Of a DNA stretch of 64,000 bases, positions 8,218-18,577 are shown one piece after another. Source of the DNA: Sphingomonas phyllosphaerae 5.2 (GTDB taxonomy: Bacteria; Pseudomonadota; Alphaproteobacteria; Sphingomonadales; Sphingomonadaceae). Numbering within the stretch: position 1 is the first letter of the stretch; each line of letters begins with the position of its first letter. The DNA lies in the NCBI RefSeq assembly GCF_000419605.1, contig NZ_ATTI01000001.1, positions 62,001 to 126,000 of the forward strand, written 5' to 3'. Position numbers and translations under genes: made by a program. The notes below the pieces were generated by a model. That model was not told the DNA's origin, did not search any database, and saw nothing but the letters and a program-made list of their open reading frames with translations.

Positions 8218-8972
8218 GGGCGGCGCTGCTGCTCGCGCTCGCCGCGCCGCTGATGATGGCGCAGGCCAAGCCGCTGCTGGTGCCCGACGTGTCGCAGCGG
8301 CAGATAGACATCGCCTACAGCTTCACCGGCGCGGAACTGCTGCTGTTCGGCGCAATCATCTATCCCGGCGGACGCCTGCCGGTCGGCGACAAGGGCACCG
8401 ACGTCGTGGTGGTCGTTAAGGGGCCGACGCAATCGGTAGTGATCCGCGAGAAGGAGAAGGTGGCGGGCATCTGGGTCAACGCCGGGCGGCTGCGCTATCG
8501 TTCGGCACCGTCATTCTATGCCGTGGCATCGTCGCGTCCGCTGGGGCGTCTGGTCGACGAGCGGACGCGCGCGATTTACGAACTGGGGCTCGACAGCCTG
8601 CAATTGTCGCCCGCCTCCGCCGCCCCGTCGGACGTGCAGGACCGTTTCACCCGCGGCCTGGTCGAGCAGCGGACGCGAACCGGGCTGTTCTACGAAGCGC
8701 CGCGGGCGGTGGAGATCACCGACGGCGTGCTTTACCGGGCGCGCGTATCGATCCCCGCTCGCGTGCCGGTGGGGCGCTTCACCGCGGAGACGTTCCTGAT
8801 TCGCGACGGCCGCGTGCTGGCGGTGGCGGTGCGTGAGATCGATATCCGTAAATCGGGCTTCGAGCGATTCGTAGCGCAGGCCGCGGATCGTCACGAATGG
8901 CTGTACGGCGGCGCGGCGGTGCTGTTGTCGGTAGCACTCGGCTGGGGTGCGGGGCGGCTGGCGCGGCGCTGA
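8214..8972 (+). CDS. TIGR02186 family membrane-anchored protein
   Basis: The 252-residue protein starts at GTG 8214 in a GTGA overlap with the exporter gene. It has an N-terminal signal (to about residue 18), a large extracytoplasmic beta-rich domain and one C-terminal membrane helix (about 228-248) followed by RLARR. Conserved stretches are YSFTGAELLLFGAI and PGGRLPVGDKGTDVVVVVKGP. The family is found almost only in alphaproteobacteria beside TauE/SafE exporters, suggesting an accessory subunit. No activity is known. Confidence 0.85.
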   Translation: MRAALLLALAAPLMMAQAKPLLVPDVSQRQIDIAYSFTGAELLLFGAIIYPGGRLPVGDKGTDVVVVVKGPTQSVVIREKEKVAGIWVNAGRLRYRSAPSFYAVASSRPLGRLVDERTRAIYELGLDSLQLSPASAAPSDVQDRFTRGLVEQRTRTGLFYEAPRAVEITDGVLYRARVSIPARVPVGRFTAETFLIRDGRVLAVAVREIDIRKSGFERFVAQAADRHEWLYGGAAVLLSVALGWGAGRLARR

Positions 8973-9040
8973 CGGCTCCACCGGTTGTTTACGAAGCCGG
9001 TGCTAGAGTCACGTGTCAGACGCCAGAAAGCGCCAACCAC

Positions 9041-10714
9041 ATGAACGACATACCAGGCTCGCACGCCTTCGATGCCGCAATCGCCGCCGCCTTTTCGGGC
9101 GCGCCGCCACTGCACGATGCGAGCGGCGCGATCGGCTATGTCCGGCAGATCGCCGGTGGTCGGGGCGAACTGATGCTCGACGGGGCGATGCTCGCGGCGC
9201 TGCAGGCCGACGCCGATCCGACGCTTGCGATGGCGGGGCAGGTCGGCGGGCAGGTAAAGGCGCGTGTCGGCGCGACCTGGCTGATCGCCACGATCCGCGC
9301 GCTAAGCCTGGTGGGCGGGCCGCGTGATCCGGTCGCCGCGGAGGTCGACTTCCTCGGCGAAGGTGATGAGGAGCGACTGACAGGGCGGCTCCACGGGTTC
9401 CGCCGCGGGGTCACCCGCTATCCGACGCCGGGGACGGAAGTGTTCGCGGTCGGTGGCAACGATCTCAAGGAAATCTATGCCGCGACCGGACGCGCCGCCA
9501 TCGAGATCGGCACCGTTCACCCGACCCGCGACGTGCGCGCTTCGCTCTACATCGACGCGATGCTTGGCAAGCATTTCGCGTTGCTCGGCTCGACCGGCAC
9601 CGGCAAGTCGACCGCCGCGGCGCTGATCCTCCACCGTATCTGCACGCTTGCGCCGCAGGGGCGTGTCGTGATGATCGACCCGCACGGCGAATATGGCGCC
9701 GCGTTCGGCAAAGCAGGCGCGCTGTTCGATGTCTCGAATTTGCAGATGCCGTATTGGTTGATGAACTTCGACGAGCATTGCGAGGTGTTCGTCACCTCCG
9801 AAGGCACGGCACGGCAAGTTGACGCCGATATCCTCGCCAAATGCCTGCTCGCCGCCAAGGCCAGGAGCCGCGCGGGGCAGGAGATCGCGAAACTTACCGT
9901 CGACGCCCCGATTCCATATCTGCTCAGCGACCTGACACAGATCATCCAGCAGGAAATGGGGAAGATGGACCGCGCGGGCGATACCTCGCCTTATCTGCGG
10001 CTGAAGAACAAGATCGACGAAGTGCGCGCTGATCCCCGCTACGGCTTCATGTTCTCCGGCATGCTGGTCGGCGACACGATGGCGGCATTCGTGCAACGCA
10101 TCTTCCGTCTGCCTGGTGAGGGCAAGCCGATCTCGATCATCGACGTGTCGGGCGTACCGAGCGAGATCACGTCAGTGGTGGTCGCGGTGCTGGCGCGGAT
10201 GGTGTTCGACTTCGCGATCTGGTCGCGCGGCGAGGCGCAGCGGCCAATCCTGCTGGTCTGCGAGGAGGCCCACCGTTACGTCCCCGCCGATCCCGCCGCT
10301 CGGGGATCGGTGGCGCAGATCCTCGGCCGGATCGCCAAGGAAGGGCGCAAGTACGGCGTCGCACTGGGGCTGGTGACGCAGCGCCCGTCGGACCTGTCGG
10401 AGGGCGTGCTGTCGCAATGCGGTACGATCATCTCGATGCGGCTGAACAACGATCGCGATCAGGCGTTCGTCCGCGCCGCAATGCCCGAAGGCGCGCGTGG
10501 CTTCCTCGACGCCCTGCCGGCGCTCCGCAATCGTGAGGCGATCGTCTGCGGCGAGGGCGTCGCGATCCCGATCCGGGTGGCGTTCGACACGCTGGAGGAA
10601 GGGCGGCGGCCGGCATCCGATGACCCGATCTTCTCCGAATTGTGGCGGAACACCGGCGGCGAGGAGGAGATGGTTGCCCGCACTGTGCACCGCTGGCGGT
10701 CGCAGGGCCGCTAG
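9041..10714 (+). CDS. HerA-like DUF87 ATP-binding protein
   Basis: The 557-residue P-loop ATPase has Walker A LGSTGTGKST at about 182-191 and MIDPHGEYG shortly after. A Walker B-type strand ILLVCEEAH lies near 405, with LGRIAKEGRKYG and VTQRPSDLSEG after it, as in the HerA/FtsK group. An N-terminal beta-barrel-like region (1-150) fits the HAS-barrel of HerA. HerA normally works with the nuclease NurA in end processing, but no nurA gene is next to it. It ends tail to tail with a DUF1810 gene, sharing the stop bases. Confidence 0.82.
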   Translation: MNDIPGSHAFDAAIAAAFSGAPPLHDASGAIGYVRQIAGGRGELMLDGAMLAALQADADPTLAMAGQVGGQVKARVGATWLIATIRALSLVGGPRDPVAAEVDFLGEGDEERLTGRLHGFRRGVTRYPTPGTEVFAVGGNDLKEIYAATGRAAIEIGTVHPTRDVRASLYIDAMLGKHFALLGSTGTGKSTAAALILHRICTLAPQGRVVMIDPHGEYGAAFGKAGALFDVSNLQMPYWLMNFDEHCEVFVTSEGTARQVDADILAKCLLAAKARSRAGQEIAKLTVDAPIPYLLSDLTQIIQQEMGKMDRAGDTSPYLRLKNKIDEVRADPRYGFMFSGMLVGDTMAAFVQRIFRLPGEGKPISIIDVSGVPSEITSVVVAVLARMVFDFAIWSRGEAQRPILLVCEEAHRYVPADPAARGSVAQILGRIAKEGRKYGVALGLVTQRPSDLSEGVLSQCGTIISMRLNNDRDQAFVRAAMPEGARGFLDALPALRNREAIVCGEGVAIPIRVAFDTLEEGRRPASDDPIFSELWRNTGGEEEMVARTVHRWRSQGR

Positions 10715-11124
10715 GTGCGTTCGCCAAGCAGCCGCAAGGTGGCGTGGTCGGGCCCGTCGAACAACGCCTTCAGCGTCTCGGCGACAATCGCCGGGGCGCC
10801 GGCACGATCGAACAGTGTCAGGGACGAGCGCAGCTTCATCGCGTCGACCACGCCCATGATCGAATCGGCCGACCGTCCACGATGCGGGCCAAGCGCAGTG
10901 ACACATTCGAGATAGCGACGGCCGAGTAGCGGATGCGCCAGATAGGCGCGCGCTTCGTCCACATCGCGGATAGCATAATGCCGGGCGGTGGCGCTCTGGC
11001 CCAAGCCGGCGACTTGCGGAAAAACGAACCACATCCAGTGGGTGCGCTTGGCGCCCTGCGTCAGTTCGCGGAGTGCGGTGTCGTAAAGGGGCGCCTGAGC
11101 GGCGACGAAGCGGGCGAGATCCAT
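10711..11124 (-). CDS. DUF1810 family protein
   Basis: The 137-residue soluble protein matches DUF1810: MDLARFVAAQ at the start, the hallmark THWMWFVFPQVAGLG, the YAIRDVDEARAYLAHPLLG segment, and a C-terminal helix around LFDGPDHATLRLL. The function is unknown. ATG 11124 is preferred to a TTG 9 nt upstream because the TTG has no ribosome site. The stop TAG shares the CTAG at 10711-10714 with the convergent HerA-like gene. Confidence 0.85.
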   Translation of the reverse strand: MDLARFVAAQAPLYDTALRELTQGAKRTHWMWFVFPQVAGLGQSATARHYAIRDVDEARAYLAHPLLGRRYLECVTALGPHRGRSADSIMGVVDAMKLRSSLTLFDRAGAPAIVAETLKALFDGPDHATLRLLGERT

Positions 11125-11164
11125 CCCTGCCAAACGCGCGGGAGGGTGGAGCCGGTCCGTTCGG

Positions 11165-11272
11165 TCAGGCCGTGATCGCCGTCACTGCGTCAACGTAGAG
11201 CAGAAGTGCCGTGGTGGCGAAGCTGGCGGCGCTGATCAGCAGCGAGCGGGCGAGCGTGGGATAGTGCGACAT
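11165..11272 (-). CDS. Small membrane protein, 35 aa (second of a tandem pair)
   Basis: The short frame encodes 35 residues beginning MSHYPTLARSLLISAASF and ending in DAVTAITA. One hydrophobic helix spans about residues 10-26. GGAG sits 9 nt before the ATG. It lies only 14 bp after a second, similar-sized membrane peptide in the same direction, and both follow a sigma-54-like promoter. I do not recognise a named family. Size, spacing, ribosome site and shared architecture make a random frame unlikely. Confidence 0.6.
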   Translation of the reverse strand: MSHYPTLARSLLISAASFATTALLLYVDAVTAITA

Positions 11273-11286
11273 CGGGCTGGCTCCGG

Positions 11287-11397
11287 TCAGGCGATCGGGG
11301 TGACGGGGACGGCGGCGCTGACCATCACGACGGCGACGGCGACGGCGGCGGCGATCGAGAACAGCGACTGGCGGAGAGCGGCGAAACGGATGGTCAT
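11287..11397 (-). CDS. Small membrane protein, 36 aa (first of a tandem pair)
   Basis: The 36-residue peptide begins MTIRFAALRQSLFSIAA and ends in AAVPVTPIA, with a basic N terminus and one long hydrophobic helix (about residues 12-32). An ideal AGGAG lies 8 nt upstream of the ATG. It could be a single-pass membrane peptide or a secreted one, since AAVPV could be cleaved. It sits 53 nt downstream of a sigma-54-type element and directly before a second 35-residue membrane peptide. Function unknown. Confidence 0.65.
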   Translation of the reverse strand: MTIRFAALRQSLFSIAAAVAVAVVMVSAAVPVTPIA

Positions 11398-11450
11398 TTG
11401 GTGAACTCCTGATGCGTCGGGCCGGTCGATCCGGCCGATGCCAGGTTCAC

Positions 11451-11466
11451 TGCAGGGACCGTGCCA
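11451..11466 (-). promoter_or_regulatory. Sigma-54-type promoter for the small membrane protein pair
   Basis: Read on the minus strand this is TGGCACGGTCCCTGCA. It matches the RpoN consensus TGGCACG-N4-TTGCW at all but one position and keeps the GG (-24) and GC (-12) pairs exactly 10 nt apart. It stands 53 nt before the ATG at 11397, leaving a normal leader with AGGAG. Confidence 0.6.
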
Positions 11467-11506
11467 ATTGGCTGCCAAGAGGGATCGACGTCGTGTCGCC
11501 ACAAAA

Positions 11507-11523
11507 CTGGCGCGATCCGCCAG
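11507..11523. promoter_or_regulatory. Inverted repeat upstream of the sigma-54-type promoter
   Basis: CTGGCG at 11507-11512 and CGCCAG at 11518-11523 form a perfect 6-bp inverted repeat with a 5-nt spacer, about 40 bp upstream of the -24 element. RpoN promoters need an enhancer-binding activator, so this is a candidate site. It is rather close compared with usual enhancers. Confidence 0.35.
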
Positions 11524-11559
11524 CTGTTTCCGGTAAGCTCCGCCAGATTGCGGCGCGGA

Positions 11560-12618
11560 TTACGATGCGGTGATCGTCCGCGCCCGCCCCTGGTCCTTGG
11601 CGCGGTACAAGGCAGCGTCGGCGCGCGCCATCAGCGCGGCGCGTCCCTCGCCCACACGCCCCTCGGCGACGCCGGCGGAAAAGGAGACGGTACCGATCAG
11701 TTCGCCGGTTTCGCGCACACGCGGGCGGCGCTCGGCGATCACCTGGCGGATGCGTTCGATCACCTGTGCGGCCTCGTCGAGAGGGGTGTCCTCGAACAGT
11801 AGCGCGAACTCCTCGCCGCCATAGCGGGCGACCATCATGCCCTTTTCGGACGCGAGCATCTGCGCGACCATTCGGATCACGCGATCGCCGACCGCATGGC
11901 CGAAATTGTCGTTGACGCGCTTGAAGTGGTCGATGTCGCAGATTGCGACGGTGACGGCCGTATCACGATGCAGCGACGCGAAGGTCTCGTCGAAGGCGCG
12001 TCGGTTCGGCAGGTCGGTGAGCGGATCGGTGCGTGCCGAGCCGCGTGCCTCGTCGAGCGCGGTGCGCAGTTCCTCGGTCTCGCGCAGCGCGTGGTCGAGC
12101 TTCGATTCGGCACGCTGCACGCGCTGGATCATGTCGGTGGTCAGCGCCGCGATTGCCTCGATTCCGGCCTCCGCACCCATGTCCCGCATCGTGTCGGCGG
12201 AGCGTTGCAGGTCACGACCGAAGTCGTTTGCCTCGGCATGGACGACGCGCATCGTGTCGTCGAACCCGTCCAGTTGAAGCATCATCCGCTCCATCATCGC
12301 CTGATGCGCGTCGGCATCTCCGGTCAGCGGCACATCGTCGCCGTCGTCGTCGCCAACGAGTGGCACGCCAGCGACCGCGCTGCCGCCAAGCGACGCGATG
12401 TCATGGGTGGTCAACCGCACGCCGCCATCGGTGATCGCCGCGACGCGCCGGGCGACCAGCCCTTCGCAATTGGCGATCACTTCATAGGCGAAGGCGTAAT
12501 GCGCCGGTTCCGGGCTGAGGCGGTGGGCGGCGAGGAACGCCCCGATGCGGGCGAACAGCCGGTCTCCCCCGTTCGCTTGCCCGGCATCGACCGCCCTGCT
12601 CGCCATCGCCCGTCCCAT
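11560..12618 (-). CDS. Diguanylate cyclase (GGDEF domain)
   Basis: The 352-residue protein has an N-terminal helical region (1-180) with no recognised sensor or membrane helix, then a GGDEF domain (about 190-350). [15 protein letters not shown] opens the domain, [15 protein letters not shown] binds metal and substrate, and the active loop is RYGGEEF, so it should make c-di-GMP. The inhibitory RxxD motif expected just before the loop is replaced by EKGM, so product inhibition may be absent. It lies about 4 kb from an NfrB-like glycosyltransferase, a c-di-GMP-dependent pathway in E. coli. That link is inference. Confidence 0.88.
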
Positions 12619-16550: not shown

Positions 16551-18413
<1,863 letters not shown>

Positions 18414-18448
18414 CTACGGGAGGAAGACGAGGGTCCGGGGACGCCGCA

Positions 18449-18545
18449 TCCACTCCCTACGCCGGTGTCAGCCGGATCAGGTTCGGCGGGTCGAGGACTG
18501 CGGCCCTCCTCTCAACCGCAGCATCGGCGGTCCCCCGGGGAAGCG
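18449..18545 (-). promoter_or_regulatory. TPP riboswitch upstream of thiC
   Basis: On the minus strand the leader has the THI-box core in order: a TTGAGAGG element (CUGAGA variant), then CCGAACCTGATCCGGCT, then ACACCGGCGTAGGGAGTG. These match the conserved pyrimidine- and pyrophosphate-sensing halves of the TPP aptamer. A CCGGGG-GAC stretch at the 5' end can also pair with GTCCCCGG just past the aptamer (about 18433-18442), a possible expression platform. The downstream gene is thiC, the usual target. Confidence 0.9.
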
Positions 18546-18577
18546 GCCGGTATAGGCGCGTCGGCATCGCAGCACCA

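Follow-up and report, generated by a model that had tools for sequence, protein, structure and literature searches.

Within the window, by which we mean the whole analysed stretch of 64,000 nucleotides from Sphingomonas phyllosphaerae 5.2, two short reading frames lie in tandem on the reverse strand. ORF1 (11397-11287) encodes a predicted single-pass membrane peptide of 36 amino acids, MTIRFAALRQSLFSIAAAVAVAVVMVSAAVPVTPIA, and ORF2 (11272-11165) a predicted membrane peptide of 35 amino acids, MSHYPTLARSLLISAASFATTALLLYVDAVTAITA. The frames are separated by 14 nt and a ribosome site is found ahead of each; that of ORF1 was read from the sequence as AGGAG (11410-11406, reverse strand). Each peptide carries one hydrophobic 19-mer, with a Kyte-Doolittle mean of 2.59 for ORF1 and 1.69 for ORF2. 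Coordinates, gap and hydrophobic segments agree with an earlier sequence-only reading, which had described two adjacent short frames with one hydrophobic helix each, 14 bp apart. The assignment of ORF1 was based on a profile, on pN/pS and on a helix model, and that of ORF2 on a frame count and pN/pS.

The ORF1 model, calculated from the single sequence, consists of one helix covering residues 2-29 with a mean pLDDT of 88. Both the length of ORF1 and its C-terminal P-x-A end are conserved. Since lysine and arginine are absent beyond residue 20 in 69 members, the topology is likely to be N-terminus in and C-terminus out.

Pfam and NCBIfam were searched with 23 members of ORF1 and 19 members of ORF2. 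The best E-values were at chance level, 0.036 (Pfam) and 0.28 (NCBIfam) for ORF1 and 0.39 (Pfam) and 0.013 (NCBIfam) for ORF2, and no family was found for either peptide, just as none had been recognised from the sequence before. The value of 0.013, given by one ORF2 member against an antiporter subunit, is attributed to a hydrophobic stretch matching by chance. No PspG match was present among the hits of these 23 and 19 members up to E = 1, and neither the PspC (PF04024) nor the PspB domain (PF06667) was found in ORF1 or ORF2 members. That the two frames are copies of each other was considered and dropped (hhalign 19%).

The upstream neighbour on the same strand is a syntenic GGDEF (diguanylate cyclase, PF00990) gene of 352 amino acids (11560-12618), with its stop at 11560; it does not belong to the unit. 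On the other flank lies a DUF1810 gene (10711-11133, reverse strand), on which a gene for a HerA-type helicase (DUF87; 8897-10714, forward strand) converges. Elsewhere in the window, a TPP riboswitch (Rfam RF00059, 57.5 bits; 18437-18547, reverse strand) is located directly upstream of a thiC gene (16551-18413, reverse strand). No Rfam match was found near the ORF1-ORF2 unit.

A sigma-54 promoter of the -24/-12 type, TGGCACG-N4-CTGCA, is positioned upstream of ORF1 at 11466-11451 (reverse strand, TGGCACGGTCCCTGCA) with exact GG-N10-GC spacing. It is preceded by a proximal enhancer dyad, a predicted PspF site, at 11522-11508 (reverse strand, TGGCGGATCGCGCCA). This dyad is a perfect TGGCG-GATCG-CGCCA inverted repeat, agreeing with the consensus TGGCG-N5-CGCCA in 10 of 10 positions. 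A distal, degenerate dyad at 11545-11531 (reverse strand, TGGCGGAGCTTACCG) agrees in 7 of 10 positions and stands at -79 from the start of the -24 element. We also looked for a sigma-70 promoter or an intrinsic terminator for the unit and found neither; for the promoter, consensus scans, which are weak in a GC-rich genome, gave no sigma-70-like site on either strand of 10650-11650.

The leader contains a stem-loop (11414-11441, reverse strand) that begins at or beside the predicted transcription start and whose apical helix covaries in relatives. For 40 of the 67 distinct leaders, pairing in the apical helix amounts to 84%, compared with 72% in shuffled sequences; cells with changes on both sides number 18 (shuffles: 5.1), and the covariation score is 0.384 (shuffles: 0.164). 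Slid controls lower all three measures. The numbers of pairs and pair types separate poorly, 39 and 14 of 500 shuffles, respectively, being as high and one slide being equal. The mean folding z-score over 68 leaders is -1.96, and in the window leader the main stem stops short of the ribosome site. We infer that the structure acts as an mRNA-stabilising 5' hairpin.

Conservation of the unit was evaluated at several levels. A search with the single ORF1 sequence gave matches in 24 of 61 genomes (its own included) at E <= 1, all of the same genus, and at the same threshold a profile built from 23 members found ORF1 in 182 of the 201 genomes of the genus, some of the best matches being weak. The profile matches listed go down to E 2.3e-6, and 69 loci picked from the strong matches were read. 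The -24/-12 element is found 66-77 nt ahead of the ATG in 68 of the 69; the exception is the second copy in a tandem duplication of ORF1 (L060, G016:C1:16149-16400), which is without a promoter of its own. An ORF2-like frame occurs downstream of ORF1 in 61 of 68 loci, being missing in seven, and in none of the 68 when the opposite strand is read; the count of 61 leans upwards as the ORF2 model was made from 19 members of the family itself. The loci of the 13 nearest relatives of the GGDEF gene (L296-L308, e.g. from S. endophytica and S. phyllosphaerae) all have the promoter and the ORF1 peptide.

In 19 of the 201 genus genomes the ORF1 profile had no match. Ten of these were also included in the pattern scan described below, and five of the ten (G004, G023, G070, G081, G102) carry a diverged unit. 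The earlier reading would have been given up had the peptides or the -24/-12 element lacked conservation; both are conserved in the genus, and the promoter with exact GG-to-GC spacing that it had pointed out is the very element retained in the 68 loci.

In the clade of seven genomes to which the window belongs, the in-frame pN/pS of ORF1 is 0.29 and that of ORF2 0.35, compared with 1.1-6.5 in shifted frames, and by these substitution patterns both frames are, we would say, translated. The same values bear on the possibility that the transcript is a small RNA or a leader in which the frames are incidental, an idea to which the conserved and covarying 5' stem-loop lends something. Selection in frame, the constant length of ORF1 with its P-x-A end, and a downstream gene that is variable rather than fixed (DUF1810 in 26 of 69 loci) all argue against it, and we regard it as highly improbable.

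In 62 of the 69 loci, the unit is preceded by a related GGDEF gene of the same orientation. The peptides could thus be thought to work with the diguanylate cyclase, in c-di-GMP signalling or in motility control at the membrane. The pair, however, has its own intergenic promoter and enhancer, and the synteny may be simple inheritance. Furthermore, promoter, ORF1 and ORF2 are all retained in the seven loci where tblastn at 1e-8 showed no GGDEF relative within 1.5 kb (the ORF1 sequences of six of these loci are alike), for which reason a dependence of the pair on this neighbour was dropped. In two sister genera ORF1 is found beside a PspC-domain gene instead (see below), and a partnership with the cyclase seems quite unlikely.

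That the unit is real beyond chance follows from its conservation and not from single motifs. When the whole genome was scanned with the promoter pattern allowing at most one mismatch, 81 matches were obtained compared with 188 for the reversed control, and the exact dyad was found at 65 places compared with 20 for its reversed control. With the reversed promoter being the commoner and the exact dyad present at 65 places, neither motif was retained as evidence alone. The earlier reading had proposed to look for the same promoter motif elsewhere in the genome: there are six exact matches, that of ORF1-ORF2 included, and the motif by itself is not found beyond chance. Two of the six precede genes that we take to be flgB and the P-II gene; upstream of both, the best dyad reaches 7 of 10 positions, away from the conserved offsets. 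For the five other exact-promoter loci together the best dyad has 6-8 of 10 positions, and none lies at the conserved offsets save one of 7 at -69 (L005).

An rpoN gene is present in the genome, as are six strong sigma-54 activators (bEBPs). One of them is PspF, which exceeds the cut-off of TIGR02974 (NCBIfam) with 467.3 bits against 443.55; the other five are presumably NtrC, NtrX, a flagellar activator and two response regulators, the latter being L035, with GAFAGA, and L037, without the loop. The pspF gene is divergent from an operon consisting of a 45-amino acid hydrophobic frame, pspA, pspB and pspC; TGGCG-CATAT-TGCCA and TGGCACG-N5-TGCAA are found in the DNA between pspF and this operon. 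Since 200 of the 201 genomes of the genus have PspF, its presence or absence is no test of a link between PspF and the unit. The arrangement of the locus and its intergenic motifs led us to compare the upstream regions of ORF1 with those of psp.

For this comparison, 68 ORF1 and 64 psp upstream regions were used, with dinucleotide shuffles as control. The sigma-54 promoter is present in all 64 psp loci read. A dyad with at least 8 of 10 positions was found in 82% of the 68 ORF1 loci (17% in shuffles) and in 91% of the 64 psp loci (15% in shuffles). The mean dyad score peaks at -67 and at -90/-89 in the ORF1 loci and at -90 in the psp loci; in the clade of the window the proximal dyad is closer by approximately a helical turn, at about -57. 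The majority letters, TGGCG-CAATT-CGCCA for both ORF1 dyads and TGGCG-CAAAT-TCCCA for psp, are much alike and not identical. In several ORF1 loci the best dyad has only 6-7 of 10 positions (6 in G071 and G151; also G190). In E. coli K-12, the pspF-pspA region contains TTAGTGTAATTCGCTAA, which agrees with the extended dyad in 9 of 12 positions, and the DNA upstream of E. coli pspG gives a best match of 7 of 12, which is not a good one.

Of the 68 ORF1 loci, 31 have an IHF-consensus-like site between the proximal dyad and the -24 element, where about 3 would be expected; in most cases it stands at one of two fixed positions. Among the 64 psp loci just 4 have such a site, and it is absent from the window and its clade; it was dropped as a general part of the unit.

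Sigma-54 control had been proposed earlier, with the inverted repeat as a possible activator site, and a phage-shock-like system had been suggested; all of this is supported. The occurrence of a near-identical dyad between pspF and pspA sharpens the last to probable membership of the PspF regulon. The features on which we judged such membership from the sequence were all found: a -24/-12 promoter, upstream dyads like those of pspA (the distal copy in the window being weak), and pspF and rpoN in the same genome.

A combined pattern of enhancer and promoter, TGG-N9-CCA-N46..76-TGGCAC-N6-TGC, was used for scanning 101 genomes of the genus. It gave 178 matches compared with 29 for the reversed pattern, and at least one match in 93 of the 101 genomes. 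Classes were assigned from the 150 matches listed of the 178, with the kinds of genes read in 20 regions and two others. Of these 150, 44 adjoin a pspF place (among the PspF matches listed) and 46 represent the ORF1-ORF2 unit, 37 by adjoining an ORF1 match and nine as diverged units (L272, L274, L276-L282). Four precede single small PspC-domain genes (L283, L284, L289, L292; PF04024, E 1.4e-6 to 5.3e-8). Seven matches precede small exported proteins (L285, L286, L288, L290, L291, L293, L294) that share a loose YC...C...W pattern. One precedes a gene for a VTT-domain (DedA-type) protein (L287, G071:C1:1747000-1748900; PF09335, 4.5e-14), which thus has the enhancer pattern together with a sigma-54-like promoter. 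The other 48 of the 150 fall in no class, some because the PspF matches listed are not the full set, and part of them are surely due to chance.

A gene similar to those of the seven exported proteins is found in the genome of the window itself (L005, G000:C1:3134676), where it stands under a sigma-54 promoter. Its small exported protein gave no match in Pfam or NCBIfam.

Outside the genus, the ORF1 profile was applied to 147 genomes of the order and matched 18 at E <= 0.01; of these 18, nine belong to Sphingomonas. Four of the nine other matches were read, three from one genus (G297, G314, G334) and one from another (G316). In all four, the ORF1 homolog has a -24/-12 element upstream and is followed by its operon partner, a PspC-domain gene of about 60 amino acids (PF04024, E 3e-11 to 4.9e-13); in G316 two tandem copies of ORF1 stand ahead of the PspC-domain gene. 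The enhancer pattern of the scan is present in G297 only of these four loci. The PspC-domain partner links ORF1 with the Psp system independently of the enhancer. As for the pattern itself, it has a match in 34 of 80 genomes from the order; since several matches lie inside apparent coding frames, its use beyond the genus was dropped and only selected places there were read. In other genera of the family, a frame of 50-51 amino acids comes directly before the frame containing the PspA start (L424, L425, L427).

With five further strong bEBPs in the genome, the unit might depend on sigma-54 and yet be controlled by a different activator, i.e. NtrC, NtrX, the flagellar activator or one of the response regulators L035 and L037. 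We consider this very unlikely, since the near-identical dyad occurs in the genome's own pspF-pspA region and is a regular feature of the psp loci, while the promoters of the presumed flgB and P-II genes have none of this quality at the conserved offsets. Additionally, PspC-domain genes recur both under the enhancer pattern and beside ORF1. Control by PspF is our preferred reading, and from the sequence data ORF1-ORF2 is very likely a satellite transcription unit of the Psp regulon.

The frame that opens the psp operon, MTNTITSKLTALALTVLVSATMVLGAVGPATALATTPAVSAHAAA (L034, G000:C1:2257840-2258120), encodes a hydrophobic leader peptide of 45 amino acids, and a small frame precedes pspA in 63 of 64 psp loci. 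A profile of this leader found 462 database proteins; the named ones among the 120 matches listed are called hypothetical or uncharacterized. The leader (about 45 amino acids) resembles the peptides of the unit in its type of promoter and enhancer and in having one hydrophobic stretch; it differs in carrying GAVGPA and a longer tail. ORF2 as a copy of the psp leader was dropped (hhalign 0.8%), as was ORF1 (hhalign 7%, and 12-20% local and about 2% global with larger ORF1 sets). Only the two ORF1 homologs of G316 match the leader, with 85% local and 18% global. As these figures are low apart from G316, a shared ancestor of ORF1 and the leader is no more than a suggestion.

In E. coli, PspA keeps hold of PspF for as long as the inner membrane is undamaged, according to excerpts of PMC9239133, PMC2763126 and PMC3709507. 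In the preferred reading, inner-membrane damage would likewise cause PspA to release PspF, which would bind the tandem TGGCG-N5-CGCCA dyads and activate the sigma-54 polymerase at the -24/-12 element. A short mRNA with the stem-loop at its 5' start would then be made, and the two small peptides would enter the inner membrane as single helices, with the N-terminus in and a short uncharged C-terminus out. They might work there beside PspA and PspC, in protecting the membrane or the pmf or in tuning PspC, as PspG presumably does in E. coli. By this analogy, a role as Psp effectors in the membrane is somewhat favoured.

The peptides could, conversely, act as membrane-depolarising brakes, resembling type I toxins or YohP, which would lower metabolism under stress and not protect. 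Their size and hydrophobicity are compatible with this. There is also a precedent in the small membrane protein YohP of E. coli, which dissipates the membrane potential, triggers the phage-shock response and increases resistance to stress (PMC12719787, in excerpt). On the other hand, no antisense antitoxin RNA or promoter was recognised in 10650-11650 or by Rfam nearby, both being weak tests, and the enhancer of PspF type and the pairing with a PspC-domain gene speak for repair. We hold a brake to be unlikely and the effector role remains the one preferred.

The nearest known counterpart is PspG of E. coli and Yersinia, described in excerpts of PMC9239133 and PMC2763126 as a small inner-membrane effector encoded in a separate PspF-activated sigma-54 unit away from pspABC. 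The pspG gene is the sole known PspF target outside the psp operon of E. coli, and its role is not fully understood (PMC9239133, in excerpt). The likeness consists in a small membrane protein and a separate, here predicted, PspF-driven sigma-54 unit away from pspABC. In contrast to PspG, which has 80 codons and two predicted helices, there are two tandem peptides of 36 and 35 amino acids with one hydrophobic segment each, a two-dyad enhancer and a leader stem-loop; matches in Pfam and NCBIfam are absent and there is no sequence kinship. PspC and PspB are membrane parts of the regulon to which the peptides are predicted to belong, and in the four sister-genus genomes a PspC-domain gene follows ORF1, whereas their domains are absent from both peptides. 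LiaI of B. subtilis and PspM of mycobacteria are small membrane partners attached to a PspA-type system (PMC11237479, in excerpt); compared by description only, they differ in having other regulators and in being encoded with the PspA-family gene.

Among the matches listed, no open-licence full text dealt with PspF or small sigma-54 peptides in sphingomonads; subscription literature is outside this scope. Such peptides were not found in the available parts of two phylogenomic surveys of Psp (PMC11237479, PMC9239133). Database entries for ORF1 may exist as 'hypothetical protein'. A PspF-controlled small membrane protein outside psp is thus known in PspG, and as far as our tools reach the family and the two-peptide form are new.

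A wider reading, which we offer tentatively, is that sphingomonads possess a micropeptide layer of the Psp response. It would comprise ORF1, ORF2 and the leader of about 45 amino acids, induced by PspF together with PspABC, the PspC-domain singletons and the small exported proteins, with ORF1 and the leader going back to one ancestor and acting with PspC. If this is true, the Psp response of sphingomonads depends for the most part on peptides overlooked by gene callers. The pair by itself, kept across a genus behind an apparently shared enhancer and found beside a PspC-domain gene in sister genera, would extend the phage-shock regulon to proteins small enough for annotation to miss, and the readable PspF motif offers a means of cataloguing and testing this regulon throughout a large group of environmental bacteria.
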